DNA of 33,335 nucleotides. Source: a virus. Position 1 is the first letter of the stretch; every line of letters begins with the position of its first letter. This document shows, piece after piece, positions 1,822 to 17,029 of the stretch. Under the pieces are notes generated by a model. That model had not been told where the DNA came from. It ran no database searches and worked only from the letters and a program-made list of their open reading frames with translations. The position numbers and the translations under genes are program-made. Location: positions 1 to 33,335 of the IMG/VR virus record IMGVR_UViG_3300031951_000710; one strand, given 5' to 3'.

Positions 1822-2091
1822 TTAAACTTGTTCCATTTCAAACACTTCTTCCTTAGATAAAGCTTCAGCTAATTCAGTTGGTTTAAATCTATTAGCATCA
1901 AAGTACTCATATGGAAAGCAAGACTGGTCTAATTCTATTTCTTTTAGTTTTAGACCAATCTTGTTCTTCTGAATACTTAAATGGGACGCACCTATTACTG
2001 TATAGATTTGACCTTTTCTTATCCACTTCTCTTGAGGAATCTGTTTTGGTTTTCTTGAGTCATCAATACATATCACCTGCATACTCTTCAA
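1822..2091 (-). CDS. Small beta-rich phage protein of the 'IDDSxRP' type
   Basis: This 89-residue protein opens MKSMQVICIDDSRKPKQIP and continues WIRKGQIYTVIG. That pattern recurs in small proteins of Bacteroidetes bacteria and phages whose role is not known. The alternation of hydrophobic strands (QIYTVIG, KIGLKLKEIEL) suggests a small beta-barrel, SH3-like fold. Its start lies inside the end of the ClpS-like gene (29-base overlap), so the two are probably translated together. I infer no function. Confidence 0.65.
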   Translation of the reverse strand: MKSMQVICIDDSRKPKQIPQEKWIRKGQIYTVIGASHLSIQKNKIGLKLKEIELDQSCFPYEYFDANRFKPTELAEALSKEEVFEMEQV

Positions 2092-2317
2092 TTTCTACTT
2101 TAAGTTCTAATTGACTAAGATTAGCATGCATTTCAAGTATGTCTACTATATTGCCTGACTTGATATTACATTTACCTACATTGTGTGCTATCAATGCACA
2201 CTGTTCAGCCTGGTCTCTTTCATGGTTACAATACCTTATAAGCAAGGCCATGACATAGAGAAAATCATTTTCTGAGTCATTGTATAAAACCAGCTGATGT
2301 GTCTTTTCCAAAACCAT
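2063..2317 (-). CDS. clpS: ClpS-like N-degron adaptor
   Basis: The 84-residue product aligns by eye along the core of ClpS, the adaptor that delivers proteins with destabilising N-terminal residues to the ClpAP protease. The strand HQLVLYND (residues 7-14) matches the ClpS strand ending in Asn-Asp; in ClpS the Asn, Asp and a later His hold the substrate's amino group. F19 and V22 match the helix after it, and QAEQCALIAHNVGKC (36-50) matches the ClpS helix ending in His-x-x-Gly-Lys, with His at 45. The second Asp of the usual NDD is Ser15. The long unstructured N-terminal tail of bacterial ClpS is missing, and that tail is the part that engages ClpA. The protein could therefore be a competitor rather than a working adaptor. 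It lies just downstream of the helicase gene. Confidence 0.65.
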   Translation of the reverse strand: MVLEKTHQLVLYNDSENDFLYVMALLIRYCNHERDQAEQCALIAHNVGKCNIKSGNIVDILEMHANLSQLELKVEIEEYAGDMY

Positions 2318-10267: not shown

Positions 10268-10432
10268 TTGAGTTGATTTTTGAGTTGATAAATAAGAGCC
10301 TAAAGTTATTAGCTCTTCTGGTGCTTCTACTGACCGCGTTATCTGTATAGCCACATAAATGTGTAACAGCACGGCTGCACTTTTGAAAGTTCATAAGGTA
10401 TGCTTCCCAACCACCTGCATCCTAAAGATGCA

Positions 10433-10594
10433 TCAATTTTTTGTAACAATAGAGAGTTCTTGCTCATAAGATTCTTTGAGCATAAGCAAATCACTCTTCT
10501 GTAATTTACTTAATGATTCTTTGTACTCTTTAGGACAAGAACCATTTACTGCTGTTACTAATACAGCAATTTCCAAAATCAAATTTGAAATCAT
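10433..10594 (-). CDS. Small protein with hydrophobic N-terminus
   Basis: A 53-residue frame begins MISNLILEIAVLVTAVNGSC and continues with a helical, charged region (YKESLSKLQKSDLLMLKESY). The first 17 residues could be a signal peptide or membrane anchor followed by NGSCP. It is isolated between the structured region upstream and a TGCATC/GATGCA hairpin at its stop. Coding is probable but not certain. Confidence 0.5.
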   Translation of the reverse strand: MISNLILEIAVLVTAVNGSCPKEYKESLSKLQKSDLLMLKESYEQELSIVTKN

Positions 10595-10631
10595 ATATGT
10601 GTGTTTAATTGGTTACTGATTAATACTTTTT

Positions 10632-10716
10632 TGCACTGAGACACAACTAACTACTAGGCAGATAGACAGAATAAATCCTGTGATGACGGCCTCTGTTCAT
10701 TAGTTGTGTCAGTGCA
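10632..10716 (-). ncRNA. Long hairpin RNA element A
   Basis: TGCACTG-AG-ACACAACTAA at 10632-10650 pairs with TTAGTTGTGT-CAGTGCA at 10700-10716, giving 17 pairs with one two-base bulge. The 49-base head contains a further ACAG/CTGT hairpin. Stems of this length do not arise by chance often in 33 kb. It has no T run on either side that would make it a simple terminator on the minus strand. Strand is inferred from the neighbouring genes. Confidence 0.55.
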
Positions 10717-10731
10717 TCAAAGATAGATTAG

Positions 10732-10760
10732 TGCTACAGAGGTTATCCACCAATGTAGCA
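10732..10760 (-). repeat. Stem-loop TGCTACA/TGTAGCA
   Basis: A seven-base perfect stem closes a 15-base loop (GAGGTTATCCACCAA). It lies between element A and the next hairpin with one base or less of spacing, as part of a chain of hairpins. Confidence 0.45.
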
Positions 10761-10805
10761 TAGGTTAGTGGAACCGTTCCGCTCTAAACTATTTTTACTA
10801 ACCTA
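10761..10805 (-). repeat. Stem-loop TAGGTTAGT/ACTAACCTA
   Basis: A nine-base perfect stem encloses a 27-base head with an inner GGAA/TTCC hairpin. It abuts the preceding stem-loop. No following T run on the minus strand. Confidence 0.45.
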
Positions 10806-10819
10806 TTATTTGACCCCTC

Positions 10820-10918
10820 TGCACTTAGTTGTGATAACTGGTATTCCAGCATCCCGTATACTCACAGGCTAACTACATGTTAGTATCACAACTGCCTGAC
10901 CAAGGTCAGATTAGTGCA
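10820..10918 (-). ncRNA. Structured RNA element B (same architecture as 11381-11529)
   Basis: The outer stem is TGCACT/AGTGCA (10820-10825 with 10913-10918). Inside it are a ten-base arm AGTTGTGATA/TATCACAACT and a separate small hairpin CTGACC-AA-GGTCAG (10896-10909), giving a three-way junction. Element C at 11381-11529 shares the outer stem, the AGTTGT arm, the GC spacer and the CTGA...TCAG hairpin, as well as a CCCCTC flank. The stop codon of the 10906-11127 gene lies inside its 5' strand on the minus strand. Role unknown: 3' end processing, leader control or a free small RNA. Confidence 0.6.
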
Positions 10919-11127
10919 TTAGGATACAGGCTTTGCACCTGTCTATTGTATTTCAAGAAGTTTTTTTCTGCTATCTCAATTTGATTCTTGAAATAACCTG
11001 TTTTGTTACCCTTTCTTTTATTAAAAATCATCAATGATTCCATCACCATTATATGTTTTCTCAACTTTCTTGTAAGTATAACATACTCTAAAAAGTTTTC
11101 TTCAGTTATTGATTTAATTGTTTTCAT
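10906..11127 (-). CDS. Small basic helical protein
   Basis: The 73-residue product (MKTIKSITEENFLEYVILTR) is basic and helical, ending VQSLYPNALI. Its last codons run into RNA element B. The start has an A/T-rich leader (CTTAAAATG). No family recognised. Confidence 0.6.
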   Translation of the reverse strand: MKTIKSITEENFLEYVILTRKLRKHIMVMESLMIFNKRKGNKTGYFKNQIEIAEKNFLKYNRQVQSLYPNALI

Positions 11128-11140
11128 TTTAAGTTTTAAA

Positions 11141-11335
11141 TTAAGGTTCTGTTACAACATAAGGTTCATTACCTATATATCGTTTTGAGGGAGTATACTC
11201 TTCTAACACTTGTAGTATCGTGAATGATTCATCTCCAATGGAGATATGTGTACTACTCCCTATATATTTAGATAGGTCTTTAGTAGTATAGTAAGAGTAC
11301 ATGTTACCTGATTGGGTTTTGATAAGATAGTTCAT
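11141..11335 (-). CDS. Small beta-rich protein
   Basis: The 64-residue product (MNYLIKTQSGNMYSYYTTKD) has strand-like stretches and ends YIGNEPYVVTEP. It begins after the shared leader AACTCAAATG and lies directly downstream of RNA element C, which would be its 5' untranslated region if both are on one transcript. No family recognised. Confidence 0.65.
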   Translation of the reverse strand: MNYLIKTQSGNMYSYYTTKDLSKYIGSSTHISIGDESFTILQVLEEYTPSKRYIGNEPYVVTEP

Positions 11336-11380
11336 TTGAGTTGAGTTTTAAGTTTTATTAATCTATTGTTTATACCCCTC

Positions 11381-11529
11381 TGCACTCAGTTGTAAGATCA
11401 CTGTGCAAGTACATAAACTCCACCCGTTACGGTTTCACAGTCTACATTCCACTCGTGATGCACAAGTACTCTCTTGGAACTTAAGATGATACTTACAACT
11501 GCCTGACCTTGGGAATCAGGAATGGTGCA
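11381..11529 (-). ncRNA. Structured RNA element C (second copy of the element B architecture)
   Basis: TGCACT at 11381 pairs with GGTGCA at 11524-11529. AGTTGTAAG at 11388-11396 pairs with CTTACAACT at 11492-11500. A small hairpin CCTGA/TCAGG follows the GC spacer. The head of the long arm is about 95 bases and has further pairings (ACTGTG/CACAGT, CCG-TTA-CGG). The closing stems and the flank CCCCTCTGCACT are shared with element B although the heads differ, the pattern expected of a conserved RNA family. It lies just upstream of the 11141-11335 gene. Confidence 0.6.
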
Positions 11530-11536
11530 TTAATAA

Positions 11537-11615
11537 AACAAAGAGAACTAAAGCCCACGACCTAACCATTGTTGATCTAACAGGCAACCCCATGGTACGA
11601 GTTGTTCTCTTTGTT
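11537..11615 (-). ncRNA. Hairpin RNA element D with 12-base perfect arms
   Basis: AACAAAGAGAAC at 11537-11548 and GTTCTCTTTGTT at 11604-11615 are exact reverse complements. The 55-base head contains ACCAT/ATGGT and GTTG/CAAC pairs when read on the minus strand. A U-rich stretch (TTTGTTTTATTA) follows on the minus strand, so termination is possible. The long branched head is unusual for a simple terminator. Confidence 0.5.
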
Positions 11616-11618
11616 ATA

Positions 11619-11713
11619 TGGTACTCTCACAAGGTTGCAACCCTTGACATACATCCAACACCGAGGCATCATAAGCCAATTGGTAGTATGTTATCCTGCA
11701 ATTGGATGAGAGT
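11619..11713 (-). ncRNA. tRNA-like element F ending in an encoded CCA
   Basis: On the minus strand ACTCTCA (11713-11707) pairs with TGAGAGT (11629-11623) as a seven-base acceptor stem, followed by A and then CCA (11621-11619). A T-arm-like hairpin, CAAGG/CCTTG with a seven-base loop GTTGCAA, abuts the 3' acceptor strand with no gap. The length of 92 plus CCA is in the range of long-variable-arm tRNAs. The loop lacks the usual TTCRA and no proper D or anticodon arm is found; TCCAA/TTGGA and CCAATTG/CAATTGG are the inner helices. It may mimic a tRNA 3' end for CCA enzymes, RNase P or aminoacyl-tRNA proteins. Confidence 0.35.
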
Positions 11714-11729
11714 AATATTGGTAATTAAT

Positions 11730-11858
11730 TTACAGTGTGTACTCTATGCTATAGTACTTACCGTCTTCACTGCGCATGCTGGCAATGATTTCATTTGGGG
11801 TGTAATAAGTAACACCATTTCTTGTATACTCAAAGAGTATTACTTTGTTATCCTCCAT
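11730..11858 (-). CDS. Small protein, 42 residues
   Basis: The frame from ATG 11858 to TAA 11730 gives MEDNKVILFEYTRNGVTYYT and then PNEIIASMRSEDGKYYSIEYTL. The even spread of charged residues and beta-type pattern look like a real small protein. The ATG is preceded by AAATTAC, without Shine-Dalgarno. It ends 16 bases before tRNA-like element F. Function unknown. Confidence 0.55.
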   Translation of the reverse strand: MEDNKVILFEYTRNGVTYYTPNEIIASMRSEDGKYYSIEYTL

Positions 11859-11893
11859 GTAATTTATTTTGAGGGTGAATATACTAATGAATG

Positions 11894-11943
11894 AGTAGTT
11901 TTATATCATACTCAGGATAATCTCGGGTGGCTATGAGACTACT
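11894..11943 (-). repeat. Hairpin element E', related to 12368-12416
   Basis: AGTAGT and ACTACT close a 50-base hairpin with an inner CTCA/TGAG pair. Size, closing bases and the inner GAG/CTC pair match the hairpin at 12368-12416. It lies between the genes at 11730-11858 and 12013-12285. Confidence 0.4.
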
Positions 11944-12012
11944 TAATAAAGTAATACTCATACAAAGAGTAATCATACATATATGTAATCAGATAAAAGG
12001 GTTACGTATTAA

Positions 12013-14310: not shown

Positions 14311-14561
14311 TTTGTATAAGTTTATGTTACAAAATGAGTAAAGGGTTGTCTGAACAAGCATGCAATCCAGCATAAGCAAAAACTTTTTGACAAGGGAAAA
14401 AAGTTGCATGCTTTGCTGCAAGATTGCTCCCACGTGGTGCAAGTCAAGGGGGGTCCCCACCCTTGCGCGGCAGCCGGGGGGCTTGTGATATAGGACCCAT
14501 CACATGCTCTACTATAGTATTAAAATTTTACCCTTATAGTATTTTGTTTTATCTTTACCTT
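14311..14561. promoter_or_regulatory. Divergent intergenic region with GC-rich hairpin
   Basis: The leftward and rightward arms separate here. The left part holds motif M3. The centre (about 14425-14485) is far more G+C-rich than anything nearby, with the palindrome CCACGTGG at 14430-14437 and a hairpin CAAGGG/CCCTTG enclosing GG...CC at 14445-14465. The right part (14505-14561) is AT-rich with TATAGTATT twice (14513 and 14536), likely promoter sequence for the rightward operon. A replication origin is a reasonable alternative. Confidence 0.5.
14336..14360 (-). promoter_or_regulatory. Promoter-like motif M3
   Basis: The minus-strand core GCTTGTTCAGACAACCCTTT matches M1 and M2. It ends about 26 bases before the start codon of the 13987-14310 gene, so transcription would begin very close to the start. 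Confidence 0.5.
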
Positions 14562-14975
14562 ATGAAGAAGATTGATATGGGGAAGTTTGTTCTTCTTATA
14601 GGAGATGATGCTACTGAGATCTTTGATTACTATGGTGTCAAAGAGATGCACGGGTTGAACCGTAAAGATGCCCAGGCAGAAGAAGTTGATAAGACTACAG
14701 GTAATGGTGTTTATATATATGGTTGGACTAATTATGATCCCCGGGACAAGAAGCTTACAGCAAAAGCCCCGTATAAACCTTTTCTCTTTCTGAACAAAAA
14801 ACACTTTACTGGAAAGTTTACTGATATTACCCTTGTTAATCATGAGGCTATGCATATAGTTATTTTGCTTAATAACTGGGATATCCGGGATAAGGAAGAA
14901 GAGACAATATCTGAAGCAGAAGATATTACTAATAGGATAGTGAAGATGCTTAAGCTAGATAAATTTACTAAGTGA
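14562..14975 (+). CDS. Small HExxH zinc-peptidase-like protein
   Basis: The start at 14562 (MKKIDMGKFVLLIGDDATEI) gives 137 residues; ATG at 14577 is a second choice. Residues 94-98 are HEAMH in the helix LVNHEAMHIVILLNN, the signature of zinc metallopeptidases, followed by several Glu at 112-120 (EEETISEAED) that could supply the third ligand. No signal peptide or membrane segment, so it acts in the cytoplasm. The protein is short for a peptidase, which leaves an inactive or regulatory role possible. Its TGA overlaps the GTG start of the transferase-like gene, so the two are translationally coupled. It is the first gene of the rightward arm. Confidence 0.65.
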   Translation: MKKIDMGKFVLLIGDDATEIFDYYGVKEMHGLNRKDAQAEEVDKTTGNGVYIYGWTNYDPRDKKLTAKAPYKPFLFLNKKHFTGKFTDITLVNHEAMHIVILLNNWDIRDKEEETISEAEDITNRIVKMLKLDKFTK

Positions 14976-15646
14976 AAGTATACTTTGACCATATCAAAGG
15001 CTTTGGTAAAGTCAGTGATCTAGAGCTTATCATTAACTGTGCCTATGGTATATTAGAACCAAATGAATCTTGTATAGATGCACTAAAGCAAGGATGGATA
15101 CCATGGGAGGGCAGATGGTATAATGAGCGTAGCACTAGATTAGATCTGAGTATTTATCAACCCACAAAGACTACAAAAAAATTATCTAAGAAAGTTAATG
15201 TTGCTGTAGGAGATGTATTAGCTCATAAAGAGATGTATGAAGAGCTTTATGAAAAGTACTGTTCTTATCATGGGTTTAAAAGAGATATTAAGTTAGAGTC
15301 TTTTAAAGATTGTCAGGTTATAGAATACTGGACAGATTACCTAGTAGGGATTAGTTTATATAAACAGTTTGAAACACAGTTTGTAGCATATCAGTTTATA
15401 TGGGATTATGCAGACCCTAAATTATCCCTAGGTACAGTTGCTCAGTACTATGAATGTGAGACTGCTAAGCTACTTGATTGTGAATATGTTTATCTCTTAG
15501 GTGGGTATGAAAAATGTTGTGAGTATAAAGCTAACTATCCCGGGTTTGAGTTTTGGACCGGTCAAGAATGGTCTAGTGATGTAGACTTATACAAGCAACT
15601 AGTAGGAAGAGATGAAAGAATTAAAATTATTGAATATGATGTATGA
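14972..15646 (+). CDS. Aminoacyl-tRNA-protein transferase-like protein (Bpt/ATE family)
   Basis: The 224-residue protein, starting with GTG, resembles the C-terminal half of bacterial Bpt and eukaryotic ATE1. These move Leu or Arg from tRNA to the N-terminus of proteins. Landmarks in order are a basic strand-helix (STRLDLSIYQPTKTTKKLSK), LYEKYCSYHG (92-101) matching the LYxxY...H region, the strand pair IEYWTDYLVGISLY, LSLGT at 151-155 (identical in Bpt), EYVYLLGGYEKCCEYKANYP (171-190) matching YLGYxxxxCxxMxYKxxF, and a final W200. The N-terminal Cys-rich segment of ATE is reduced to a few Cys. GNAT-type acyl transfer is expected; the amino acid is not known. Confidence 0.65.
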   Translation: MKVYFDHIKGFGKVSDLELIINCAYGILEPNESCIDALKQGWIPWEGRWYNERSTRLDLSIYQPTKTTKKLSKKVNVAVGDVLAHKEMYEELYEKYCSYHGFKRDIKLESFKDCQVIEYWTDYLVGISLYKQFETQFVAYQFIWDYADPKLSLGTVAQYYECETAKLLDCEYVYLLGGYEKCCEYKANYPGFEFWTGQEWSSDVDLYKQLVGRDERIKIIEYDV

Positions 15647-15860
15647 ACCTAAAAATAGAGTAGAAGTAGATACACCAAAAGGCTCAGGCTTCATATGGAT
15701 GATAACAGACTATGGTCATGAGACAGACACTATTTATACTGTGATTATAAATAGTACAGGAGAATTTTGGCAGTTTACTCATAGAGATATAAAAGCTAAA
15801 AGTAATATTACGTTTCGTAGAAATATGAAAAAAGCAATAGATCCTCTTATTGGAAAATAA
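15636..15860 (+). CDS. Small beta-barrel-like protein coupled to the transferase gene
   Basis: The start is ATG at 15636 or 15639, inside the last codons of the transferase gene, giving about 74 residues (MMYEPKNRVEVDTPKGSGFI). The strand pattern VEVDTPKGSGFIWMITDYG with DTIYTVIINSTGEFWQFTHR resembles a KOW or SH3-like barrel. Coupling suggests it works with the transferase or peptidase-like protein. No family is assigned. Confidence 0.6.
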   Translation: MMYEPKNRVEVDTPKGSGFIWMITDYGHETDTIYTVIINSTGEFWQFTHRDIKAKSNITFRRNMKKAIDPLIGK

Positions 15861-16504: not shown

Positions 16505-16785
16505 TGGAAATTAAAGAAACAAAGATTCCAAGCTTTGGTGAACAGCTTATTGGAATTACTTATAATCCAGAATCAGAAGACACTGTAGTTAAAATTAAGT
16601 CTATGTTTGCTGAGATAGCAGAGATAATGAAGAAGGATTACACAGAGAATAATAGACACCCGCTTAAGAGTCTCCTGTTTGATCATGCCGTGGGGGAGAT
16701 AGTTAATGCACAAATGGCAGTAGTAAAATTAATAACACTTAAACATTACACAGATGAAGTTGATGGGGAGAAGAATCCTGATTGA
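16504..16785 (+). CDS. Acb2/Tad1-like protein (candidate cyclic-nucleotide sponge)
   Basis: The 93-residue protein has the two-helix pattern of the Acb2/Tad1 hairpin family. FGEQLIGITYNPESEDTVVK is followed by IKSMFAEIAEIMKKDY (first long helix), then Pro and a second helix with EIVNAQMAVVKLITL matching the family's LExAxMxAVKAxT. Known members bind cyclic oligonucleotides or gcADPR and shut down CBASS or Thoeris defence. The phage version would act in the cytoplasm early in infection. Which ligand it binds cannot be read here. It overlaps the GroES-like gene by 32 bases. Confidence 0.6.
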   Translation: MEIKETKIPSFGEQLIGITYNPESEDTVVKIKSMFAEIAEIMKKDYTENNRHPLKSLLFDHAVGEIVNAQMAVVKLITLKHYTDEVDGEKNPD

Positions 16786-17029
16786 TATTCCTAAGAAGAA
16801 GGAATCAGTAATTGAGCTTACAGCAAAAGATGAGGAAGCAGTAATGCAAGAAGCTATGAAGCTTTGGACTAAGCTTAATGTTTATGCTACGGGGGATACA
16901 GTAGAGAAAGTATCACCGGGGGATAAAGTATATGTAACTACTGGTTCACTCCAGAATGCAGAGAAGGTAGAAATAGAAGGTGATGTTAAGCTCATGTTGA
17001 GCGAAGGTGATGTTGCAATAGTATGGTAA
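16754..17029 (+). CDS. GroES-like co-chaperonin
   Basis: The 91-residue product begins MKLMGRRILIDIPKKKESVI; the ATG at 16763 is an alternative start. It shows the GroES pattern: an N-terminal strand RRILIDIPK, a variable mobile-loop region, VSPGDKVYVT with the conserved GD turn, and a final LSEGDVAIVW equivalent to the C-terminal strand. Phage GroES-like proteins such as T4 gp31 adapt host GroEL for folding capsid protein. The canonical mobile-loop motif is not obvious, so GroEL binding is unproven. Confidence 0.65.
   Translation: MKLMGRRILIDIPKKKESVIELTAKDEEAVMQEAMKLWTKLNVYATGDTVEKVSPGDKVYVTTGSLQNAEKVEIEGDVKLMLSEGDVAIVW

Follow-up and report, generated by a model that had tools for sequence, protein, structure and literature searches.

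The window, a 33,335-nt stretch of viral DNA, encodes an aminoacyl-tRNA-protein transferase of the ATE_C type whose constant genomic partner is a small gene directly downstream, and not the HExxH gene that it overlaps. A ClpS-like adaptor is encoded in the same window, which suggests that the phage steers host protein disposal by means of a tagger and a ClpS-like reader, and on balance the transferase probably widens the set of host N-degrons that enter ClpS-Clp proteolysis. The terminase is 25-26% identical over 85% to crAss-like records (E down to 2e-35) and ∼24% identical to Flavobacterium phages, and by terminase identity the window is assigned to a probable crAss-like phage. The features in question are as follows.

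2063..2317, minus strand: ClpS-like N-recognin adaptor, 84 aa (Pfam PF02617, N/D/H triad)
14320..14561, no strand: presumed control region, intergenic between the leftward gene and the first rightward operon (ORF map)
14562..14975, plus strand: HExxH protein, 137 aa, HEAMH at residues 94-98, overlaps the transferase gene
14972..15646, plus strand: ATE_C-type aminoacyl-tRNA-protein transferase, 224 aa, GTG start (Pfam PF04377, AlphaFold2 fold, Foldseek, dN/dS)
15636..15860, plus strand: small partner protein, 74 aa, overlaps the transferase stop (longer start at 15612)

Organization of the arms

The ORF map places the start of the leftward arm near 14311 and the rightward arm from 14562 onwards. 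The first three rightward genes (HExxH, transferase and 74-aa protein) have overlapping ends, and all three ORFs were recovered at the positions given for them in an earlier, sequence-only reading of this DNA. Promoters from a consensus scan and terminators around the operon are about as numerous as in shuffled sequence, and neither structured RNAs nor tRNAs were found in the window. Elsewhere, a region of ∼1.6 kb between leftward genes (10373-12012) lacks any leftward ORF of at least 80 aa and gave no Rfam or tRNA match. A 91-aa protein encoded at 16754-17029 (plus strand) looks GroES-like by eye (GD-V-PGD-V); searches of Pfam, PHROG and the PDB gave no support to a co-chaperonin, and this reading was discarded.

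The transferase belongs to the ATE_C superfamily

The GTG start of the transferase gene overlaps the TGA of the upstream HExxH gene (GTGA), and relatives have their start codon, mostly ATG, at the same position. The product carries the LSLGT motif (residues 151-155), the Tyr/Cys block YVYLLGGYEKCCEYK (172-186) and two tryptophans, W195 and W200; LSLGT, this block and a Trp had first prompted the proposal of a Bpt/ATE-like transferase. Across 29 relatives L151, S152, G154, Y174, G178, Y179, C182, C183, Y185, K186, W195 and W200 are invariant. The window protein matches Pfam ATE_C (PF04377) at 28.8 bits with a gathering score of 25, and as the family is matched by all 25 relatives scanned with a best E of 3e-9, the resemblance to ATE lies beyond chance. 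ATE_C also exceeds its gathering score in 14/14 large contigs, whereas a general GNAT match is weak and limited to six of the 25 relatives. The alignable match starts near residue 34, so that part of the ATE N-terminal region can be aligned too.

A CxxC...CC cysteine motif has been described for ATE1 (PMC9884297, PMC10115844), and no such metal-binding cluster occurs within residues 1-90 of the phage alignment. The arginyltransferase equivalog models of NCBIfam give scores of about a tenth of their cut-offs or less (the window protein reaches at most 25.7 bits, cut-off 252). Because the cysteine cluster is absent and the equivalog scores fall far below the cut-off, the protein is placed in the ATE_C superfamily and not within ATE1 or Bpt.

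A model was predicted with AlphaFold2 from an alignment of 29 phage sequences that are 58-82% identical to the window protein (mean pLDDT 87, pTM 0.86). In a Foldseek comparison with the PDB, ATE1 structures of human, Kluyveromyces and yeast fill the first 27 places (probability 1.00, E down to 1.1e-8), and the folds that come next, L-PGS/MprF, FemX and L/F-transferase, are all aminoacyl-tRNA transferases. A profile of the relatives likewise finds yeast ATE1 in the PDB with an E of 3e-5. Structure prediction, suggested earlier as a check against the GNAT fold of Bpt/ATE1, thus returns ATE1 as the best PDB match. Profile, profile-profile comparison and fold agree in upholding the proposal of a Bpt/ATE-like enzyme: family and fold are those of an ATE_C-type aminoacyl-tRNA transferase. 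The dN/dS values between relatives of ∼0.03-0.22 indicate purifying selection, and the gene is therefore maintained. Yeast ATE1 inserts a helix bearing a basic patch into the groove of the tRNA acceptor stem (PMC10115844). The basic stretch KTTKKLSKK of the phage protein aligns with the position of this Lys/Arg-rich helix, and the phage helix may tentatively be equated with it on the strength of the alignment.

The transferase is present in dozens of environmental phage contigs. Among the named GenBank phages searched, none carries the transferase, the HExxH protein or the operon DNA; PHROG gave no meaningful match for any of the three operon genes, and a search by peptide patterns found no close cellular homologues of the transferase. 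In BFVD a single clear viral relative was found (A0A6J7WRI5, 30% identity), the remainder being mostly general GNAT matches. The sequence-only reading had known of no described phage system of this kind, and the literature searched, from which subscription papers were mostly absent, likewise joins neither phages with an ATE-type transferase nor crAss-like phages with ClpS or arginyltransferase.

The small downstream gene is the constant partner

In nearly all loci the small gene starts between 22 nt inside and 26 nt past the matched end of ATE. The exceptions are L112, L115 and L116, where a divergent version lies upstream (27-30% identical to the small partner), and the truncated L114. The protein has no Pfam or NCBIfam match; it is strongly conserved at 65-74 aa, and the copy at L116:7738-7944 (minus strand) is a divergent one located 5′ of ATE.

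The constant partner of the transferase is this gene and not the HExxH gene. In many relatives the HExxH gene precedes ATE at a distance of 33-45 bases, measured by matched ends, but it is absent from the ATE-bearing contigs G003, G008, G010, G011 and G012 (91-187 kb), lies ∼58 kb from ATE in G009 and is found downstream of the small gene in some other loci. Conversely, no ATE occurs within 2 kb at 63 of the 79 HExxH loci (flanks of up to 2 kb). This absence and distance rule out the HExxH gene as a constant partner. In the protein itself, HEAMH reads HETMH or HETVH in aligned relatives, E112, E113 and E120 are invariant, and the HExxH motif and the downstream glutamates lie in helices of a predicted model of middling confidence (pLDDT 80). 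A metalloenzyme may well be encoded. The best PDB match of the model has an E of 0.94, and no peptidase family or fold was matched in Pfam, PHROG, NCBIfam or the PDB. The earlier proposal that a peptidase-like protein is coupled to the transferase consequently holds for the overlap of the two genes in the window, but the functional partnership is not supported, since the gene order is not conserved across ATE-bearing contigs and the model matches no peptidase.

A ClpS-like adaptor in the same window

The ORF at 2063-2317 on the minus strand, in the leftward arm, had gone unremarked in the sequence-only reading. It matches Pfam ClpS (PF02617) at 42.6 bits (cut-off 23, E 5e-11) and contains an amino-group-binding triad, N13, D14 and H45, of which all three residues are kept in 79 of 82 viral homologues. 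Their spacing, 32 residues from N to H, is that of the residues that bind the substrate's α-amino group in E. coli ClpS. In the ClpS of G004 and G008 (L132 and L139) an Asp replaces the otherwise conserved amino-group-binding His. The closest cellular relatives found are almost all ClpS proteins of Bacteroidota (41-52% identical), and from the phage type and this source of the closest ClpS the host is likely a member of the Bacteroidota.

Pfam ClpS is found in 9 of 14 large ATE-bearing contigs, including one whose sequence around the operon is the same as that of the window, and in 9/15 once G003, which has no ClpS, is counted. Relatives picked by HExxH or terminase include ClpS in eight of ten cases and ATE in none. 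No co-occurrence of ATE and ClpS above the lineage background is thus seen (9/15 with ATE versus 8/10 without). As ClpS is common with or without ATE, it is a trait of the lineage to which ATE is an addition, and the lack of enrichment means that the two genes need not act together; co-occurrence by itself gives no evidence of joint action.

The N-terminus of the phage protein is shorter than that of its cellular counterparts. The nearest ATG lies 12 residues before the ND motif in 77 of 82 viral genes; of 40 Bacteroidota homologues, 27 have 25 residues there. The delivery extension is thus shorter in the phage protein by ∼13 residues, or about half. In E. coli, the substrate is released when ClpA pulls on the N-terminal extension of ClpS, and delivery is inhibited if the extension is kept from entering (PMC9663308). 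By analogy, phage ClpS might deliver by another route or might block the pathway.

A second phage type carries ATE near a Clp ATPase

In G011 and G012 the ATE is 58-61% identical to the window transferase, and a Clp/Hsp100 ATPase of 684-686 aa that is devoid of an N-domain is encoded on the same strand, 2.4-2.7 kb upstream of ATE.

L116:3554-5608 and L112:3282-5342, same strand as ATE: Clp/Hsp100 AAA+ ATPase; Hsp20 close in L116, DnaK close in L112
L116:6383-7168 and L112:5353-6138, minus strand: short protein resembling M20/PepT, encoded between the Clp ATPase and ATE; NCBIfam matches weak (L116 copy scanned)

The ATPase carries a TSNIG...GVGF loop, which resembles the ClpP-contacting loop of ClpC. 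Because the intervening genes run in the opposite direction, the arrangement is a neighbourhood and not an operon. ClpS was not found in G011 or G012, and the genes located after the operon in relatives of the window were not detected there either.

Proposed role and alternatives

Bpt, ATE1 and Aat are host enzymes for the tRNA-dependent tagging of protein N-termini. Among 396 Bacteroidota genomes, ClpS is found in 370 and Aat in 335, and ATE_C exceeds its cut-off in 18. Aat acts on Arg and Lys N-termini, and the Bpt of Vibrio vulnificus, atop Aat and ClpS, adds Leu to N-terminal Asp and Glu, which thereby become destabilising (PMC3692480).

For the amino acid, the acceptor, the targets and their degradation we infer the following scheme. 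The conserved basic helix of the transferase would bind a charged host tRNA at its acceptor stem, and the amino acid would be moved to the α-amino group of proteins, most likely as Leu onto Asp or Glu in the manner of Vibrio Bpt. Leu N-termini are what ClpS reads, and phage ClpS, host ClpS or both would hand the tagged proteins to the host Clp protease. Acidic N-termini would in this way be added to the degradable set of a host with Aat and ClpS, and since most Bacteroidota possess both but no ATE-type enzyme, the phage would extend that set. A Leu writer that is read by ClpS and run by the host Clp protease is the most economical account, and we give it slightly better than an even chance. 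It is favoured by the family, fold and selection of the transferase, by the ClpS gene in the window, by the gene content of the likely hosts and by the second phage type, in which ATE lies near a Clp-type ATPase, Hsp20 or DnaK. Against it count the lack of ClpS enrichment alongside ATE, the short N-terminus of phage ClpS and the missing ATE1 cysteine cluster. A broader version, in which two kinds of phage each pair an ATE-type N-degron writer with a reader or disposal part, one having ClpS and the other a Clp-type unfoldase, and so shorten the life of chosen host or phage proteins during infection, is put forward tentatively, as something possible that we would not yet call probable.

A serious if unlikely alternative is that the phage blocks the host N-degron pathway: an extension-less ClpS core would occupy the ClpS site of the Clp unfoldase and hold N-degron proteins, with the transferase changing N-termini to a non-degradative end, for instance masking. 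The shorter reach before the ND motif (12 versus 25 residues) and the inhibition of delivery when the extension is blocked in E. coli (PMC9663308) are in line with such a role. However, the extension requirement is an E. coli ClpA result and the Clp unfoldase of Bacteroidota may differ in the length that it needs, and the triad kept in nearly all viral homologues fits delivery as well as binding.

Equally improbable in our estimate is a transferase of the same fold whose acceptor is not a protein N-terminus but the small partner protein, an internal side chain, a small molecule or a lipid. After ATE1 the best-matching folds are MprF/L-PGS and FemX, the N-terminal region on the substrate side is unlike that of ATE1, and a 74-aa gene so strictly paired with the transferase could well encode its dedicated acceptor or a regulator, but the ATE_C profile is found in every relative scanned, with the general GNAT match weak in six, and all 27 best structural matches are ATE1.

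The protein could also be a relative without catalysis that binds charged tRNA, for example to withhold it or to regulate translation, a reading favoured by a GY-YK loop that is shorter than in Bacteroidota homologues and that holds CC; the SLG/SMG, GY and YK motifs are nonetheless invariant, those common to bacterial homologues are kept and dN/dS is low, all of which make it quite unlikely. That the HExxH protein is a peptidase exposing the N-termini tagged by the transferase has little chance of being correct, as the gene overlap, the frequent upstream position and the invariant HExxH with its downstream glutamates in helices are outweighed by the inconstant gene neighbourhood, the many HExxH loci free of ATE and the lack of a peptidase family or fold match.

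If the favoured account, a Leu writer read by ClpS, is true, these phages would reprogramme bacterial protein turnover by altering which N-termini are destabilising, and not by bringing a protease. A phage-encoded ATE-type writer is new to the literature searched, whereas phage ClpS adaptors were already known, from jumbo phages (PMC7824862). The phage protein is also a small ATE free of the cysteine cluster and suited to mechanistic work, and the natural substrates of bacterial N-degron pathways could be studied during infection.

Comparison with known systems

With Bpt of Vibrio vulnificus the phage protein shares the ATE_C domain, and several NCBIfam arginyltransferase (PRK01305) models match (E as low as 1e-8 among relatives); both systems have a ClpS reader. 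Unlike Bpt, the phage protein is phage-borne, is paired with a small gene, has no ATE cysteine cluster and reaches only 25.7 of the 252 bits of the equivalog cut-off. Eukaryotic ATE1 (PF04376 and PF04377) has the fold and the C-terminal GNAT-type domain in common with the phage protein, which is half its length and lacks both the CxxC/CC metal site and the variable domain. Aat shares the aminoacyl-tRNA transferase fold (E ∼1e-5) and the pathway, but it constitutes a separate Pfam family (PF03588) and, unlike the phage protein, is host-encoded, in 335/396 Bacteroidota. Phage ClpS has the same N/D/H triad and core as the ClpS of Bacteroidota and of jumbo phages, with an extension shorter than in Bacteroidota.

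The closest cellular proteins found are 22 ATE_C proteins of Bacteroidota, with 164 columns alignable to the phage profile (E 5.8e-9). Common to both are a G-W/Y start, the Arg of the LRI/TRL strand, the Lys/Arg-rich helix, SLG, GY, YK and the final Trp. The phage transferases nevertheless group as a single, long-branched clade (100/100), with a shorter GY-YK loop and a different N-terminus. As the 22 extracted Bacteroidota proteins also appear to be free of the cysteine cluster, a cysteine-free class of ATE_C exists in cells as well.
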